Shown here piece after piece: positions 5,810-22,195 of a stretch of DNA of 26,047 bases (position 1 is the first letter of the stretch; each line of letters begins with the position of its first letter). Made by a program: the position numbers and the translations under genes. The notes beneath the pieces are model-generated. The model saw nothing but the letters and a program-made list of their open reading frames with translations. It searched no databases and was not told where the DNA came from. The DNA comes from a virus. The stretch is from IMG/VR virus record IMGVR_UViG_3300031329_000021, positions 1 to 26,047 of that record; one strand, written 5' to 3'.

Positions 5810-6655
5810 TTATGACAGACAGCGCCGACAAAGTGCAATTGTGTTCCCGTGTTGGCACTTAGGAGCAGGAGCGCTCAGCGCCTCCTGTGAGCGTTGGTCA
5901 GCTAGGAACTGGTCTTTGTAAGCCAAGTCCTTGCTTCGTCGCTCCTCGGTAGCAACACGAGCCTCTGAGGAGGTTATGAAGTTTTCCCAAGCATCGGCGT
6001 TTAGCCAAGACGACGGGTACTTCGTAAACTGTGGCTTGCGATAGGGATCGTCCTTGTATGCCTTGACCCCAGCGATGATGCTTTCAAAGCTTGCTCTTTT
6101 CAAAGCGCTTCTAAAGTCTTTCACTGCTCGACCCTTGTCAATCTTCTTTGGGTAAAGCTCCCAGAACTGATTGAAGCTTTTTACAAATTCTTCTTCTTCA
6201 GAATCTCGCAAGTTAGGTAATGGTTTCTTTTCAAGGTTATTTAATGGTTCGGGTGGTCTGTACACCGCCCCCCCTGTGGTCTCTACACCGCCCCCCTTTG
6301 TCGTAGATGCCACCCCCCCTTGTGGCATTTGTACAGGGGTGGTCTGTACACCGCCCCCTTTGTTTTTTCGGTGATTTGCGCTTCTATCGCACTCATCGGG
6401 GCAGGTAATTTCAACGTAATACCTGTTAGTAAAACCTTCCCTGCGTTCTTCTCTAAGTTCGCCGAGTGCGATTAGTGAGTCGATGGAGCGCTGAACTGTT
6501 CTGCGATTTATTCCGCCTGATAATCTGCCAATGGTTTCAATTGCAGGCCAAGCTCCGTGTTCGCCTTCAAAGTTAGCTATGGCAATAAGTACAAGCCTGT
6601 CTGAGTAGGTAGCCTTGGAGTGGTAAAGGGCTAGTGCTACTGCCGAAATACTCAT
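5810..6655 (-). CDS. Replication initiation protein, lambda O-like
   Basis: 281 aa. Residues 1-95 look like a winged HTH (SDRLVLIAIANFEG..WPAIETIGRLSGGINRRTVQRSIDSLIALGEL). Residues ~100-140 are a Gly/Thr/Pro-rich linker with GGGV[QE]TT repeats. Residues ~155-225 (FNQFWELYPKKIDKGRAVKDFR..., TKYPSSWLNADAWENF) are the C-terminal module found in phage replication proteins and some helicase loaders. The linker DNA contains repeats that look like origin iterons, the same design as lambda O, where the origin lies in the initiator gene. It ends with a CQHG/CRRC knuckle. It overlaps the GIY-YIG gene by 4 bp. Confidence 0.7.
   Translation of the reverse strand: MSISAVALALYHSKATYSDRLVLIAIANFEGEHGAWPAIETIGRLSGGINRRTVQRSIDSLIALGELREERREGFTNRYYVEITCPDECDRSANHRKNKGGGVQTTPVQMPQGGVASTTKGGGVETTGGAVYRPPEPLNNLEKKPLPNLRDSEEEEFVKSFNQFWELYPKKIDKGRAVKDFRSALKRASFESIIAGVKAYKDDPYRKPQFTKYPSSWLNADAWENFITSSEARVATEERRSKDLAYKDQFLADQRSQEALSAPAPKCQHGNTIALCRRCLS
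6253..6358. repeat. Iteron-like repeats, candidate replication origin
   Basis: Three copies of GTGGTCTNTACACCGCCCCC on the plus strand, at 6253-6272, 6276-6295 and 6339-6358, with a degenerate fourth (6300-6323). GTACAG/CTGTAC flank the third copy as an inverted repeat. An AT-rich stretch (about 6200-6246) adjoins. Copy 1 is read in a different codon phase from copies 2 and 3 (23-bp versus 63-bp offsets), so the DNA rather than the protein appears conserved. The minus strand carries several runs of five to seven G. Confidence 0.55.
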
Positions 6656-7236
6656 TTCTTTAGCCTCTCAATCTTCTCATAAAAAATCTCATTTTCAAAG
6701 GCCAAGTGCTTATGGAAACACTCCTCGAACCAGCGAGTGCTGTGGATATCCTTGCAGTCTCTACATTCCGATAAGCAAGGCAGCGCCCTTCTACCAGCAA
6801 AGTTATCTAGACAAAGCTGATGCAGATTTTTAACAATCAACTCATCCGAGATATTTGAACCCCAAGACTTTAGCTCCCGGCTGTATTCAAGGTGTGCAGC
6901 ATCGGGCTTAAATTGCTTGCCGTCAATGTCCTTGTCCTGAAACATTTGCATCAAGTGAAGCTTCAACCTAAAATCATCTAAGTAAGGTGATTGTTCCGCT
7001 TGTGTGTTGTTCATTGCGATATTGTGAATTGGTTTCTCTGTGCGGATTGCTATCGCTTCAGCTCTAAATGCGTCATTTCTAAAATCGTAATGCTCATAAG
7101 TGGCATTGGCTATTTGAGAAAACCACTCAGCTTTTTTTGCGTGCTGTGATTGTCGACCTTTGATATTGCCTGTTATTCCTACATAAAGTAGGCGGCCTTC
7201 GCTATTAAAATAACGGTAAAGACTTGTTTGTTTCAT
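6652..7236 (-). CDS. GIY-YIG family nuclease
   Basis: 194 aa. The N-terminal domain has LYRYF (GIY equivalent), LLYVGIT (YIG equivalent) and an Arg/Lys-rich helix (IKGRQSQH), followed by RAEAIAIRTEKPIHNIA, which supplies the Glu and Asn expected in this fold. The C-terminal ~110 residues include a possible Cys/His cluster (CLSECRDCKDIH) that could bind metal or DNA. It may be a homing-type endonuclease or a recombination nuclease. The ATG overlaps the upstream stop as ATGA, and it is coupled to the replication gene downstream. Confidence 0.7.
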   Translation of the reverse strand: MKQTSLYRYFNSEGRLLYVGITGNIKGRQSQHAKKAEWFSQIANATYEHYDFRNDAFRAEAIAIRTEKPIHNIAMNNTQAEQSPYLDDFRLKLHLMQMFQDKDIDGKQFKPDAAHLEYSRELKSWGSNISDELIVKNLHQLCLDNFAGRRALPCLSECRDCKDIHSTRWFEECFHKHLAFENEIFYEKIERLKK

Positions 7237-7376
7237 TTCTGCCTATCTGATGTGGCAGAATGATAACTGCCGACATCCTCATTGTCGGTTTTGCAGGTCA
7301 GGGGTTTACGCCTCTGGCCTGCTTCCATTCTATCACTTACCATCCGCACCGCTTGTGGCAGCGTAACGCTGTGCAT
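7233..7376 (-). CDS. Hypothetical protein, 47 aa
   Basis: MHSVTLPQAVRMVSDRMEAGQRRKP... with GAAGGATCT directly before the ATG, a good ribosome-binding site, so it is probably translated on its own. The same frame stays open upstream through the 10-G tract, so a slippage event would fuse these residues to the methyltransferase C-terminal subunit. Function unknown. Confidence 0.5.
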   Translation of the reverse strand: MHSVTLPQAVRMVSDRMEAGQRRKPLTCKTDNEDVGSYHSATSDRQK

Positions 7377-7425
7377 AGATCCTTCTTTTTGTTGCGTTGA
7401 TTGCAAGTTGTCAGTGTAAGTGTCG

Positions 7426-8265
7426 CTAACTGTTGGAGTTGGAAGATTCACTTGCCCCCCCCCCAGCCGGTAGCGTAACGCCCTCAAGCAAGATTCGCAA
7501 AGCCAGCTCAGCCTGTTGCGGAACTACACCGTTGCCACACGCCTTTAGTTCCTGATTGCGAGTCAGTCCGACACCTGTAACCCAGCCTTCTGGTAGCCCC
7601 ATCATCCACTCTGTGAATAGCGATGAAAGCCTGTGAGCTCCATCCTTGCCGTCTGGCTTAGTTGGCAGCGGTGCTGGTCGGCCTAGTGCGTGTTCCCAGC
7701 GTCTGATTGCTGGCTCGAACTTGCCCCATAATGTTTTTTCGACTGCGGTTGCAATCCCTCTACTGGATGCTGAGCCTGAGCCGGAATGGTTTGCGCCTTT
7801 CCAATCCAAGGCAGTGGTGGTTGGGAGCAAGTCATTTACTACGGTTTCCCTTACATTGGCGTATCCGCCTTTGTGTTTATTCAAAGCTTTTTGCTCAGGG
7901 GTTCGGGCTGGCAAGTAATCCATTGTGTTCGGGGTCGGAAAGTAAGTCATCATTTGACCGCTTAGGGTTACTTGTCCGCCTCGAGCCTTTGATTTATCTT
8001 CTGGCTGGTGTCCTCGTTCGGCTTCGCTAGCTGCTGGAGTTCTGAGGATAGGCAATGATGAAAACTCGGAATCTGTTATGGGGAGCGCCTGCGTCGGCAG
8101 CTCGTAAACCTTGCCATTTCGCATCGTACCCGAGGTCTGCCAAGTCTCCGAGAACAGCTCCCAATGCTCGCAAAGCAGGTTCGCTATCCCCTGCTTCTCC
8201 CATACACCACGGACAGTGTTCCAAGTCTGGGTTGGTTGCGCTTGCGCTAAGTAATCCTCTGACAT
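7426..8265 (-). CDS. Cytosine-C5 methyltransferase, C-terminal subunit/half
   Basis: 279 aa in a frame different from the N-terminal half. Recognisable pieces: FSETWQTSGTMRNGKVYELPT, SSLPILRTPAASE, then EWMMGLPEGW (residues ~219-228) and CGNGVVPQQAELAL (motif X, ~243-256). Motifs I-VIII are absent; they are in the overlapping upstream gene, so neither half alone should be active. Split m5C methyltransferases with overlapping alpha/beta genes are known (M.AquI, M.EcoHK31I). The start ATG at 8265 is weakly marked (GGTGG upstream). A run of ten G near the end sets the C-terminus. Confidence 0.65.
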   Translation of the reverse strand: MSEDYLAQAQPTQTWNTVRGVWEKQGIANLLCEHWELFSETWQTSGTMRNGKVYELPTQALPITDSEFSSLPILRTPAASEAERGHQPEDKSKARGGQVTLSGQMMTYFPTPNTMDYLPARTPEQKALNKHKGGYANVRETVVNDLLPTTTALDWKGANHSGSGSASSRGIATAVEKTLWGKFEPAIRRWEHALGRPAPLPTKPDGKDGAHRLSSLFTEWMMGLPEGWVTGVGLTRNQELKACGNGVVPQQAELALRILLEGVTLPAGGGASESSNSNS

Positions 8266-8599
8266 TTTCAATGACCACCAATCTAGGTTGTAGTTCTTCT
8301 ATTGCTCTTGCAAACTCAGACCAAAGACCTGAGCGTGTTCCTGTTCTTAGTCCGGCACGCTTGCCAGCTAATGATAAATCCTGACAAGGAAAACCGCCAG
8401 TAAGAATGTCCACTGGCTCCACCTGAGTGAAGTCAACCTTGGTAACATCACGGTAATTTGGGACACCCGGGAAGTGAGCTTCAAGGATTGCGCTCGGTGC
8501 TGACTCCCACTCACAGTGCCACGCAACTTCTGCGCCTGTGACATTGACAACAGCATTGTCTAGTCCGCCGTAACCGCTAAAGAGCGAGCCAATCTTCAT
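8027..8599 (-). CDS. dcm: Cytosine-C5 methyltransferase, N-terminal catalytic subunit/half
   Basis: 190 aa. Motif I FSGYGGLD (7-14), motif IV GGFPCQDLS with catalytic C72, motif VI ENVRGL (111-116) and motif VIII HNRFRVFIIA (174-183). It stops at PQNSSS where a complete enzyme would continue to the target-recognition region and motifs IX-X; those are encoded by the overlapping frame at 7426-8265. The overlap is 239 nt. A sequencing or +1 frameshift origin is possible, but the second frame is protein-like through the whole overlap. Expected role: methylating phage DNA against host restriction. Confidence 0.8.
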   Translation of the reverse strand: MKIGSLFSGYGGLDNAVVNVTGAEVAWHCEWESAPSAILEAHFPGVPNYRDVTKVDFTQVEPVDILTGGFPCQDLSLAGKRAGLRTGTRSGLWSEFARAIEELQPRLVVIENVRGLLSASATNPDLEHCPWCMGEAGDSEPALRALGAVLGDLADLGYDAKWQGLRAADAGAPHNRFRVFIIAYPQNSSS

Positions 8600-11290: not shown

Positions 11291-11320
11291 ATTCTATGTC
11301 AAAGCACGGACACCTTTCAA
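11291..11320 (-). promoter_or_regulatory. Promoter P3 of the recombination operon
   Basis: Minus strand: TTGAAA (11315-11320), 18-bp spacer, TAGAAT (11291-11296). Start expected near 11284, giving a short leader with AAAGGAG before the exonuclease ATG. The -35 box lies inside the first codons of the opposite whiB-like gene and the -10 box overlaps that gene's ATG, so the two promoters should compete. Confidence 0.6.
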
Positions 11321-11553
11321 GTCTCTATATGAGATTTCTAAAGCTGGTCAATTTGCACGATCCTGATTGCCAGAAGCTTCCAAACGTTTTCTTCCCGGAG
11401 GACATAAGCGATCCAGAAGCTAGGGCAGTTGCAACCAAAACCGCAAAGGCAATCTGCAAGGCTTGCCCGATGGTTGACGATTGTTTTACCTACGCAATGG
11501 AGACGCATCAGCGCTATGGAATTTGGGGAGCAACTTCACCGCAAGACCGTTAA
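11296..11553 (+). CDS. WhiB-like Fe-S transcriptional regulator 1
   Basis: 85 aa. Four Cys for a [4Fe-4S] cluster: C25 (DPDC), then C54-x2-C57-x5-C63 (CKACPMVDDC), followed by YGIWGAT (the G[VI]WGG turn, here GIWGA). WhiB proteins bind host sigma-A and redirect transcription; phage members are known to act on host whiB2/superinfection control in mycobacteriophage TM4. No basic C-terminal DNA-binding tail is present, since it ends SPQDR. First gene of the only plus-strand cassette, with leaderless start. Confidence 0.85.
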   Translation: MSKHGHLSSLYMRFLKLVNLHDPDCQKLPNVFFPEDISDPEARAVATKTAKAICKACPMVDDCFTYAMETHQRYGIWGATSPQDR

Positions 11554-11560
11554 AAAGACA

Positions 11561-11598
11561 ACCGCACCACCTCCTGATTGCTCAAGAGACAGTGCGGT
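11561..11598. terminator. Bidirectional terminator between whiB 1 and the tRNA-like gene
   Basis: 7-bp perfect stem ACCGCAC/GTGCGGT with a 24-nt loop. On the plus strand it is followed by GTTAATATTTTG; on the minus strand by TGTCTTTTTAA, the better U-tract. It would end the first whiB transcript and, in the other direction, the tRNA-like or late read-through transcript. Confidence 0.45.
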
Positions 11599-11615
11599 GT
11601 TAATATTTTGATTAG

Positions 11616-11686
11616 GGGCCGTACTAGGAATCGAACCTAGACTTTAACCCATATCCGGGCTGTCTCTACCATTGGACTATGCGGCC
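11616..11686 (-). tRNA. tRNA-like gene with an aberrant anticodon arm
   Basis: Minus strand: acceptor GGCCGCA/TACGGCC (one C:A mismatch), TA at positions 8-9, D arm with AATGGTAG loop, and a perfect T arm CTAGG-TTCGATT-CCTAG. CCA is not encoded. The anticodon arm can pair AGCCC/GGGTT but leaves only six bases (GGATAT), with no U33, so no anticodon can be assigned. 71 nt, about one or two bases short. A -10-like TAGTAT lies just upstream (11698-11703). It could be a decayed tRNA, a sequencing error, or a tRNA mimic. Confidence 0.6.
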
Positions 11687-11740
11687 TTGTAGTCACAATA
11701 CTAGCACTCTTTGCGATTTGCTTTGGCTCTGGGCAATGGT

Positions 11741-11746
11741 TACTCT
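11741..11746 (+). promoter_or_regulatory. Leaderless promoter of whiB genes 2 and 3
   Basis: TACTCT (TANNNT) followed by six bases and the ATG at 11753: the same geometry as for the first whiB-like gene. No ribosome-binding site precedes the ATG. Confidence 0.45.
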
Positions 11747-11752
11747 TTGCTT

Positions 11753-12028
11753 ATGACTAACTTTCAGGCTTACGAAAAGCTAAAACTTGCAATCGCAAAC
11801 GCTCCTGCAATACCACCTTGCCAGACAACCGACCCTGAGATTTGGTTCTCTGATAACGAGACAGGAGTCCACGATTACAGGGTTGCAAAAATCTTTTGCA
11901 AAACTTGCCCTGTTAGAAATGAGTGCCTTCAGTATGCCATCGTCGCTAACGAGGTTCACGGAATCTGGGGAGGTCTTACCTACAAGGAGCGCAGGAAGCT
12001 CGCTCCTAAAGGTTGGCAAAAAAAGTGA
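11753..12028 (+). CDS. WhiB-like Fe-S transcriptional regulator 2
   Basis: 91 aa from ATG 11753; the longer TTG frame was rejected because it runs through the promoter. Cluster Cys: C23 (PPC), C49-x2-C52-x5-C58 (CKTCPVRNEC), then VHGIWGG and a basic tail (TYKERRKLAPKGWQKK) that may contact DNA. The Cys spacing is identical to regulator 3, so the two probably arose by duplication. Its stop overlaps the next start as GTGA. Confidence 0.85.
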   Translation: MTNFQAYEKLKLAIANAPAIPPCQTTDPEIWFSDNETGVHDYRVAKIFCKTCPVRNECLQYAIVANEVHGIWGGLTYKERRKLAPKGWQKK

Positions 12029-12291
12029 GGGCTGCTAAAGAACACAACAACCTGCGTCTTGCAATTCTTGAGCTGCCGACGACAACATCCTGTCAAAAAC
12101 TCGACCCCGATATTTGGTATCCTGAGCAAGGGCCAGCGCTTGCCATAACTATAGAAGCTAAGCGCCTCTGTAGCCTCTGTCACGTCCGAGTAGAGTGCTT
12201 GGCTTATGCCTTAGCAGCTAACGAACGTCACGGAATCTGGGGAGGGCTGAGCGCCGACGCTAGGAAAAAACTTAGAGCGACTTCTTCGTAA
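12025..12291 (+). CDS. WhiB-like Fe-S transcriptional regulator 3
   Basis: 88 aa from GTG 12025, coupled to regulator 2 by a GTGA overlap. Cys at 23, 49, 52 and 58 (TSC; CSLCHVRVEC, with His where Pro is usual), then RHGIWGG and a basic tail (ADARKKLRATSS). Its 3' end overlaps the convergent holin-like gene by 20 bp, with no terminator between them, so late transcription would produce antisense RNA to it. Confidence 0.85.
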   Translation: MRAAKEHNNLRLAILELPTTTSCQKLDPDIWYPEQGPALAITIEAKRLCSLCHVRVECLAYALAANERHGIWGGLSADARKKLRATSS

Positions 12292-21346: not shown

Positions 21347-21763
21347 TTATGATGTGGCTTTAGTGATTGAACCGCTTAGTGGGAACGTGACGCTAAACGT
21401 GGACAAGTCTCCGACAGCTCCGCTTACAGGCGATAGAGAATTTATGAGGTAACTGCCAGCGTAGCTAGGGGTTGTCGCTGAAACTGTTGAGCCGTTTCCT
21501 GCAATAAGGGTTATGGTTACAAGCGTTCCAACTAGGTCTTCGGTTAGAACGGTATTTAATGCACCTGCGCCAAAGTCAGTGTGAAAGTCTAGAGACAGCG
21601 AGCCGGACTTTAGCCCTCCGACAACCTCAGTGAACCCGTCAGAAGCAAAGTCAGTAACATCAACTTCGGTTGAGGTGATTGTAAGTTCTGCACGAGCGAC
21701 GCTCGCACTTACGTCTGTTCCGCCAATGTCGACGTTGTTTCCGGTAACTACATACTTAGCCAA
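21347..21763 (-). CDS. Major tail (tube) protein 2
   Basis: 138 aa, TTG start behind AGGAG. Beta-rich with VTDFASDGFTEVVGGLKSGSLSLDFH and a C-terminal SLSPVSGAVGDLSTFSVTFP, typical of tail tube proteins. 108 of 138 positions match the gene just upstream (hand count), with changes concentrated at ~67-75 and ~98-113. One copy may be the tube and the other a variant subunit. Confidence 0.8.
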   Translation of the reverse strand: MAKYVVTGNNVDIGGTDVSASVARAELTITSTEVDVTDFASDGFTEVVGGLKSGSLSLDFHTDFGAGALNTVLTEDLVGTLVTITLIAGNGSTVSATTPSYAGSYLINSLSPVSGAVGDLSTFSVTFPLSGSITKATS

Positions 21764-21778
21764 TTTATTCTCCTTTTA

Positions 21779-22195
21779 TTATGCTACAGCTTTAGCGACT
21801 GAACCTGACATTGGGAATGTCACGCTAAAAGTTGAAAGGTCGCCGACAGCTCCGCTAACGGGTGACAGGGAATTTACCAAAAAGTTGGCAGTGTAGCTAG
21901 GCGTTGCATCGGTAGGCGCTGTCCCGTTCCCTGCAATCAAAACAATTTGGACTAGAGTTCCAACCAAGTCTTCAGTTAAAACGTCGTTTATGCCGTCTGT
22001 TGCAAAGTCGCTATGAAAGTCTAAGGACAATGAGCCGGACTTCAATCCGCCGACAACTTCAGTAAAGCCTCCGGAGGCAAAGTCGGTCACGTCAACTTCG
22101 GTTGAGGTTATGGTTAGCTCTGCTCTTGCCACGCCTGCACTTACATCCGTGCCTGCGATGCTTACTTTGTTTCCTGTTACTACATACTTTGCCAA
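21779..22195 (-). CDS. Major tail (tube) protein 1
   Basis: 138 aa, TTG start behind AGGAG, same length and fold as its downstream copy. Conserved VARAELTITSTEVDVTDFAS and VLTEDLVGTLV between the two. The tandem pair is unusual; most siphophages have a single tube gene. The codons differ at many synonymous positions, so the duplication is not recent. Confidence 0.8.
   Translation of the reverse strand: MAKYVVTGNKVSIAGTDVSAGVARAELTITSTEVDVTDFASGGFTEVVGGLKSGSLSLDFHSDFATDGINDVLTEDLVGTLVQIVLIAGNGTAPTDATPSYTANFLVNSLSPVSGAVGDLSTFSVTFPMSGSVAKAVA

Follow-up and report, generated by a model that had tools for sequence, protein, structure and literature searches.

A dual-coding gene overlap in a probable two-chain m5C DNA methyltransferase family of phages, with poly-G tracts in the second gene

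Overlapping genes for m5C DNA methyltransferases are already known, namely from M.AquI, M.EcoHK31I, and the Cluster O phages. M.AquI (CYCGRG) is a two-polypeptide m5C enzyme whose larger chain comprises motifs I-VIII and whose smaller chain contributes motifs IX-X, and M.EcoHK31I (YGGCCR) is likewise composed of two polypeptides, with motif IX located in the second chain (PMC3404938). The layout has also been seen in genes 6/7 of Cluster O mycobacteriophages (Corndog, Firecracker), for which it was left undecided whether two products, a frameshift, a hop, or an intron are involved (PMC4351075). Finally, actinophage methylases of the ShiLan type harbor a hidden HNH in an alternate frame (PMC11855218).

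The locus described here lies in a 26-kb virus record from IMG/VR (26,047 nucleotides; this whole stretch is referred to as the window in the following). From the letters alone, a preliminary description had proposed that a single stretch of DNA specifies two portions of a methyltransferase in two frames. The features of the two genes, termed alpha and beta, are as follows.

8027..8599, minus strand: alpha gene, putative catalytic half of an m5C DNA methyltransferase (PF00145, TIGR00675; split kept in relatives)
7426..8265, minus strand: beta gene in the +1 frame of alpha (ATG start, TTG at 8271 possible; phrog_1008; start kept in relatives with a strong Shine-Dalgarno (SD) sequence)
8027..8265, minus strand: dual-coding overlap of 239 nt (purifying selection in both frames)
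8274..8279, minus strand: SD-like GGTGGT upstream of the beta ATG (anti-SD duplex -8.5 kcal/mol)
7729..8046, minus strand: variable [L/F][P/R]T[P/T] modules of beta (number and identity vary among relatives)
7582..7611, minus strand: motif IX, EWMMGLPEGW, in beta (located by motif scan; columns nearly invariant in alignment A2)
7513..7536, minus strand: motif X, GNGVVPQQ, in beta (located by motif scan; columns nearly invariant in alignment A2)

The open reading frame 8599-8027 on the minus strand was confirmed and corresponds to an alpha protein of 190 aa, which aligns with the N-terminal half of PF00145 (E 9e-37; positions 1-164 of the 324 in the profile) and also matches TIGR00675 in an NCBIfam search; among proteins of solved structure, M.HhaI is closest to it in sequence (E 1.6e-16). 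Motifs I (FSGYGG), IV (PCQ), VI (ENV), and VIII (HNRFRVF) of C5-cytosine DNA methyltransferases are present in this frame, just as the preliminary description had read them, and the stop codon follows directly after motif VIII. Its placement of EWMMGLPEGW and GNGVVPQQ in the 8265-7426 frame was equally borne out, so that motifs IX and X of such enzymes are both found, near-invariant, in beta. This second protein is made up of a dual-coded N-terminal domain, the variable modules, and motifs IX and X, and matches phrog_1008 ("DNA methyltransferase", E 3.5e-59). Searches of Pfam and NCBIfam with beta or with nested betas (see below) gave no match, and a PDB sequence search with beta returned no relevant match. 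At loci L015, L016, L090, L093, and L095, motif X was observed in the third frame, which represents a second frame change inside beta, with a G tract nearby in some of them.

An AF2 model of beta (alignment n=57, from fetched loci only, with rows from annotated phage records left out) reached a mean pLDDT of 69, with values >90 for residues about 181-240 and short strands at residues 10-54 (pLDDT about 64-84). Judged by this model, the N-terminal domain of beta that lies on top of alpha motifs VI-VIII is apparently small and strand-rich. Among the matches listed by Foldseek for the beta model, all were C5 DNA methyltransferases, albeit with poor E-values, and VIA-align placed beta residues 181-245 onto the C-terminal region of DNMT3A/B with a Z of only about 2.5. 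These weak predicted similarities agree with beta representing the missing C-terminal part, without proving it. For a nested beta, the model reached a pLDDT of 58 and was too poor for a structure search.

In the partition of motifs (alpha I-VIII, beta IX-X), the window and its relatives correspond to M.AquI, for which the variable region was reported as divided between the chains. M.EcoHK31I is matched in that the second chain is encoded in another frame of the first gene, with partial overlap in the window and full nesting in relatives. Its distribution of motif IX to the small and motif X to the large chain is not met by the window, where X resides in beta, but is met by 72/87 relatives of one nested set. 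Moreover, the window beta extends past alpha, unlike in M.EcoHK31I, and contains the variable modules, whereas the target recognition domain of M.EcoHK31I was assigned to the large chain. The earlier comparison with both enzymes was apt. As in the window, the Cluster O genes encode the two halves of a C5 methyltransferase in frames that overlap, both frames of the overlap have coding potential, and the best start for the second gene falls within the first (PMC4351075), and Firecracker is itself within our set of relatives; unlike in that account, selection and start-site evidence here favors two products, and the family is wider. The likeness to the ShiLan type consists in an actinophage methylase gene with a conserved alternate-frame protein (PMC11855218), where, however, the hidden frame is a mobile endonuclease insertion and not an enzyme subunit.

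The family and phage searches that had been proposed for both proteins assigned alpha to PF00145 and beta to phrog_1008 and recovered the same split in relatives. It was surveyed in 95 distinct loci (mostly IMG/VR contigs, retrieved with alpha or beta) and is kept in about 90 distinct viral contigs. In nearly all of the 95 loci, alpha stops 1-13 codons beyond the end of its match and motif X lies in the +1 frame; across the overlap, the +1 frame is open and the +2 frame is not. The phage records that match beta number 569 and nearly all belong to actinophages. WhiB genes in the window and the hosts of the relatives point to an actinobacterial host, as far as can be judged from sequence. Three consecutive small WhiB-like genes are located at 11296-12291 (plus strand), of which the first two match Pfam Whib and the third is similar by eye. 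Elsewhere in the window, a GIY-YIG domain protein (6652-7236, minus strand; PF01541, E 8.7e-05) is encoded directly downstream of the methylase genes, and two adjacent, very similar 138-aa genes (21347-21763 and 21779-22195, minus strand) beside structural genes look like a tandem duplication.

In GenBank, the overlap is annotated for Juno112 (239 nt), Firecracker (209 nt), and Blue7 (155 nt), while other entries trim beta or give a single gene. In public annotations, the beta start is often placed too far downstream, alpha is left out, or only a single gene is given, as seen for L027 (Orcanus gp41), L129 (Jinkies), and L028 (Martik gp71), each of which hides the dual-coded part. In the Mycobacterium phages L117 (Empress) and L119 (GigiOuiOui), a frame change of alpha near residue 87-91 was noticed, with beta being intact.

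Selection across the overlap was assessed with 77 dereplicated relatives, using the non-overlapping part of the alpha gene as control. At residues with four-fold-degenerate codons, the frequency of identical codons rises from 0.331 in alpha residues 1-118 to 0.554 in the overlap. None of the 77 relatives has a +1-frame stop in the overlap, as opposed to 96% expected when synonymous codons are resampled with alpha proteins and codon usage kept, an openness far beyond chance. The identity of beta pairs amounts to 0.48 in the overlap (null 0.267) and 0.334 outside (null 0.291). However, frame C identity is likewise elevated in the overlap (0.408, null 0.228), as conserved codons lift it too; frame identity alone was therefore rejected as proof of dual coding, and stop avoidance and single-change tests were used instead. 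W126 and W133 of beta are present in 77/77 relatives at positions where alpha is variable (L in 37/77 and M in 46/77), and codons that are rare elsewhere have become fixed at sites where beta depends on them (e.g., Gly GGG in 74/77 at a usage of 0.13). Among close pairs, changes that are synonymous in alpha and stop beta occur at 0.0008 per opportunity in the overlap versus 0.0525 in the control region, and changes that stop frame C in the same overlap at 0.039. The beta N/S is 0.41 in the overlap (0.0408/0.0999) and 1.29 in the control (0.0538/0.0416). Since pairs are not independent and the nulls include no phylogeny model, these figures are used as effect sizes without p-values. Selection is thus observed on both frames, as required of a dual-coding overlapping gene pair, and we regard the 239-nt overlap, on the strength of these sequence comparisons, as truly dual coding. 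The preliminary description had judged that both frames of 8027-8265 look like real methyltransferase-type sequence and had called for a test of purifying selection there; stop avoidance, tryptophan invariance, and N/S bear it out.

Start signals for beta are conserved as well, and most loci show one of two patterns. In the window type, the ATG (8265) is formed from the Glu-Asn-Val (ENV) codons of alpha motif VI. In the other, represented by about half of the relatives, GTG mostly comes immediately after a +1 stop and is preceded, at a distance of a few bases, by AGGGG or AGAGG; in two loci of this pattern, a Ser-to-Asn change in alpha has put ATG in place of GTG. The mean anti-SD duplex energies of the two patterns (-7.1 and -6.9 kcal/mol) compare with -2.9 for other ATG/GTG codons of the +1 frame and -5.2 for alpha starts.

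Among genome and viral homologues, three layouts of one family share the same +1 peptide, i.e., split, nested, and fused actinobacterial; phrog_1008 matches the window beta, one nested beta, and one fused-form beta. In the nested layout, which is found in phages and in genomes of many phyla and resembles M.EcoHK31I, beta lies inside alpha, with motif IX in beta and X in alpha. Here, +1 stops are absent from all 73 dereplicated sequences (69% expected), and the beta N/S is 0.15 versus 0.80 in the control. In the fused layout, motifs IX and X are in the alpha frame, and the +1 peptide scores above all 100 synonymous shuffles; many of these forms still have modules in beta. Only 1.8% of the fused sequences carry a +1 stop (35% expected), and new +1 stops arose at 3 of 3961 opportunities (rate 0.0008 versus 0.0207 in the control). 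The beta N/S of this set (1.50 versus 1.75 in the control) is uninformative by itself, so that the case for the fused forms rests on stop avoidance, codon conservation, and HMM comparison. In the actinobacterial set, a short alpha is, apart from a few exceptions, associated with IX/X in beta and a long one with IX/X in alpha itself. Genes of the "fused" Martik/Derg type were rejected as plain single-chain controls, as their +1 frame is also constrained; canonical methyltransferases of Okeania and Saccharibacteria were used instead. The canonical enzymes (Okeania, Saccharibacteria, and others) have +1 stops and lack the +1 peptide.

In a tree with midpoint root, whose bootstrap is not fully settled, the canonical methyltransferases form one clade and every +1-open type is placed opposite them (99/95), with an interchange of split and fused forms inside an actinobacterial clade (100/96). 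From this topology, we infer that the second frame appears to be old and that what varies is the point where the C-terminal part returns to the alpha frame. The notion that fused genes are an old state with a decaying relic is unsupported, as these genes continue to avoid new +1 stops and one actinobacterial clade has fused forms alternating with split ones. More distant C5 methylases (L163, L171, L174, L180, and L182; Pseudomonas, Collimonas, Armatimonadetes, Actinomycetota) also have a long stop-free +1 frame of different sequence, partly matching phrog_16143, which is maybe another nested partner class.

Taken as a whole, we consider it highly likely that the window encodes a two-gene m5C DNA methyltransferase with chains from overlapping frames, although translation of both, complex formation, and methylation are inferred, with no expression or activity data at hand. 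Alpha would be the catalytic half with motifs I-VIII. A ribosome would start inside alpha, either at the ATG in the ENV codons or at a downstream GTG/ATG after AGGGG/AGAGG, and produce beta in the +1 frame, whose N-terminal domain over alpha motifs VI-VIII would be followed by modules that probably read the target, an inferred function, and by motifs IX and X. Both chains would then join as one active enzyme in the manner of M.AquI, and presumably shield the phage DNA from host restriction, a role that is likewise inferred. The original idea of two enzyme parts in the same DNA is supported by every test that was run, namely by the conserved split, the constraint specific to the +1 frame, and the conserved beta start sites.

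Alternatively, a single polypeptide could be produced if ribosomes moved to the +1 frame close to where alpha ends, through either a programmed frameshift or a hop, in which case beta would have no start of its own; motifs I-VIII and IX-X do follow in order in frames 1 nt apart, relatives with a continuous frame do exist, and the possibility was kept in PMC4351075. Independent initiation nevertheless fits better, because a frameshift at that point would leave the overlap untranslated in the +1 frame that is under selection there, and the variable alpha tails offer no common slip site. As SD sequences and start codons also lie upstream of the overlap, often right behind a +1 stop, the hallmarks of a programmed frameshift gene (a conserved slip site and no independent start) are not met, and we deem this route very unlikely. 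Hardly any credence is given to a constraint at the DNA or RNA level (a structure or regulatory site), with beta translated only after the alpha stop as in some GenBank entries: the annotated start of Orcanus gp41 does lie after the alpha stop, and codon conservation also raises frame C identity, but stops are avoided in +1 and not in frame C (0.0008 versus 0.039 per opportunity), and the invariant tryptophans and an N/S below 1 follow the logic of a +1 protein.

If the +1 product were a small protein in its own right, acting mainly as something other than a methyltransferase subunit (e.g., in anti-restriction or regulation), this would, at least for the fused forms, account for a peptide that is still protected from stops (3 of 3961) where alpha itself possesses IX and X. 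We think this improbable, as split and nested betas carry motif IX, which C5 methyltransferases need, and beta retains modules in many fused forms. A sequencing or assembly error or a decaying pseudogene might be suspected given that the virus record is metagenomic and the gene contains a homopolymer, but is refuted, as far as comparison of sequences can do so, by the recurrence of the split in about 90 distinct contigs as well as in sequenced phage isolates such as Juno112, Firecracker, and Blue7, and by strong purifying selection; it can practically be dismissed. Of the two findings named beforehand as fatal to the two-frame interpretation, a single-base error is thereby excluded, and relatives with a continuous frame but no conservation of the second were not what emerged: continuous relatives exist, and their second frame is still conserved.

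Near its end, beta contains a homopolymer next to a further module:

7455..7464, minus strand: G10 tract near the beta end (relatives with G9 and the same flanks read into the next module)
7236..7454, minus strand: out-of-frame module (VNLPTPTVSDTYTDNLQSTQQKEGSMHSVTLPQAV...), which a G9 tract would add to beta (in frame in L002, L004, and L005)

Each beta has 1-5 modules, which begin with [L/F/M][P/R]TP and are shuffled among relatives; for example, the first module of L010 differs from that of the window in one residue in about 40, with alphas that are 43% identical. G7-G11 tracts lie directly upstream of many beta modules (loci with a pre-module poly-G: window, L002, L004-L007, L009, L012, L016, L046, L056, L058, and L107), and runs of G>=8 on the coding strand number 25 in 111 kb of beta regions versus 4 in 353 kb elsewhere. 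With G9, the module is in frame in 14/14 cases, and with other lengths, six are out of frame, four in frame (L078 being counted as such from its translation, against the script label), and one unassigned. Between identical flanks, G9 (L004, L005) reads on for 72-77 codons, whereas G10 (window) and G7 (L006, L007) stop after 8. A homopolymer length that sets the frame and differs among relatives is one mark of a phase-variable locus, and the poly-G site looks like a contingency locus at the sequence level; homopolymer errors in the assemblies are possible, as there are no read data. Tentatively, and with somewhat more doubt than confidence on our side, beta could be a modular phase-variable specificity subunit, in which poly-G slippage would switch shuffled target-recognition modules or the C-terminal part with IX-X in or out of frame. 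A population would then display several methylation specificities with a constant alpha, and the dual-coded N-terminal domain would serve as the fixed dock between the chains.

A literature search found no paper on a family-wide dual-coded beta or on a phage poly-G methylase, which is only weak evidence of absence. As far as the literature searched shows, the selection and start-site evidence for two products, the family of three layouts, the constrained +1 frame in continuous-looking genes, and the poly-G tracts are new. In bacteria and phages, it is uncommon for selection to have been measured on both frames of a long same-strand overlap, and an undecided puzzle of actinophage annotation is turned into a testable model. 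The results indicate that a dual-coded second frame is a family-wide trait shared by many m5C methylases from phages and prophages, among them genes whose annotation shows a single uninterrupted methylase, and suggest that a second protein, missed or shortened in annotation, is required by many of these enzymes; recoding such a gene for expression could consequently destroy an unmarked second gene. The poly-G tracts, in turn, raise the possibility that phages, like bacteria, subject the methylation of their own DNA to phase variation.
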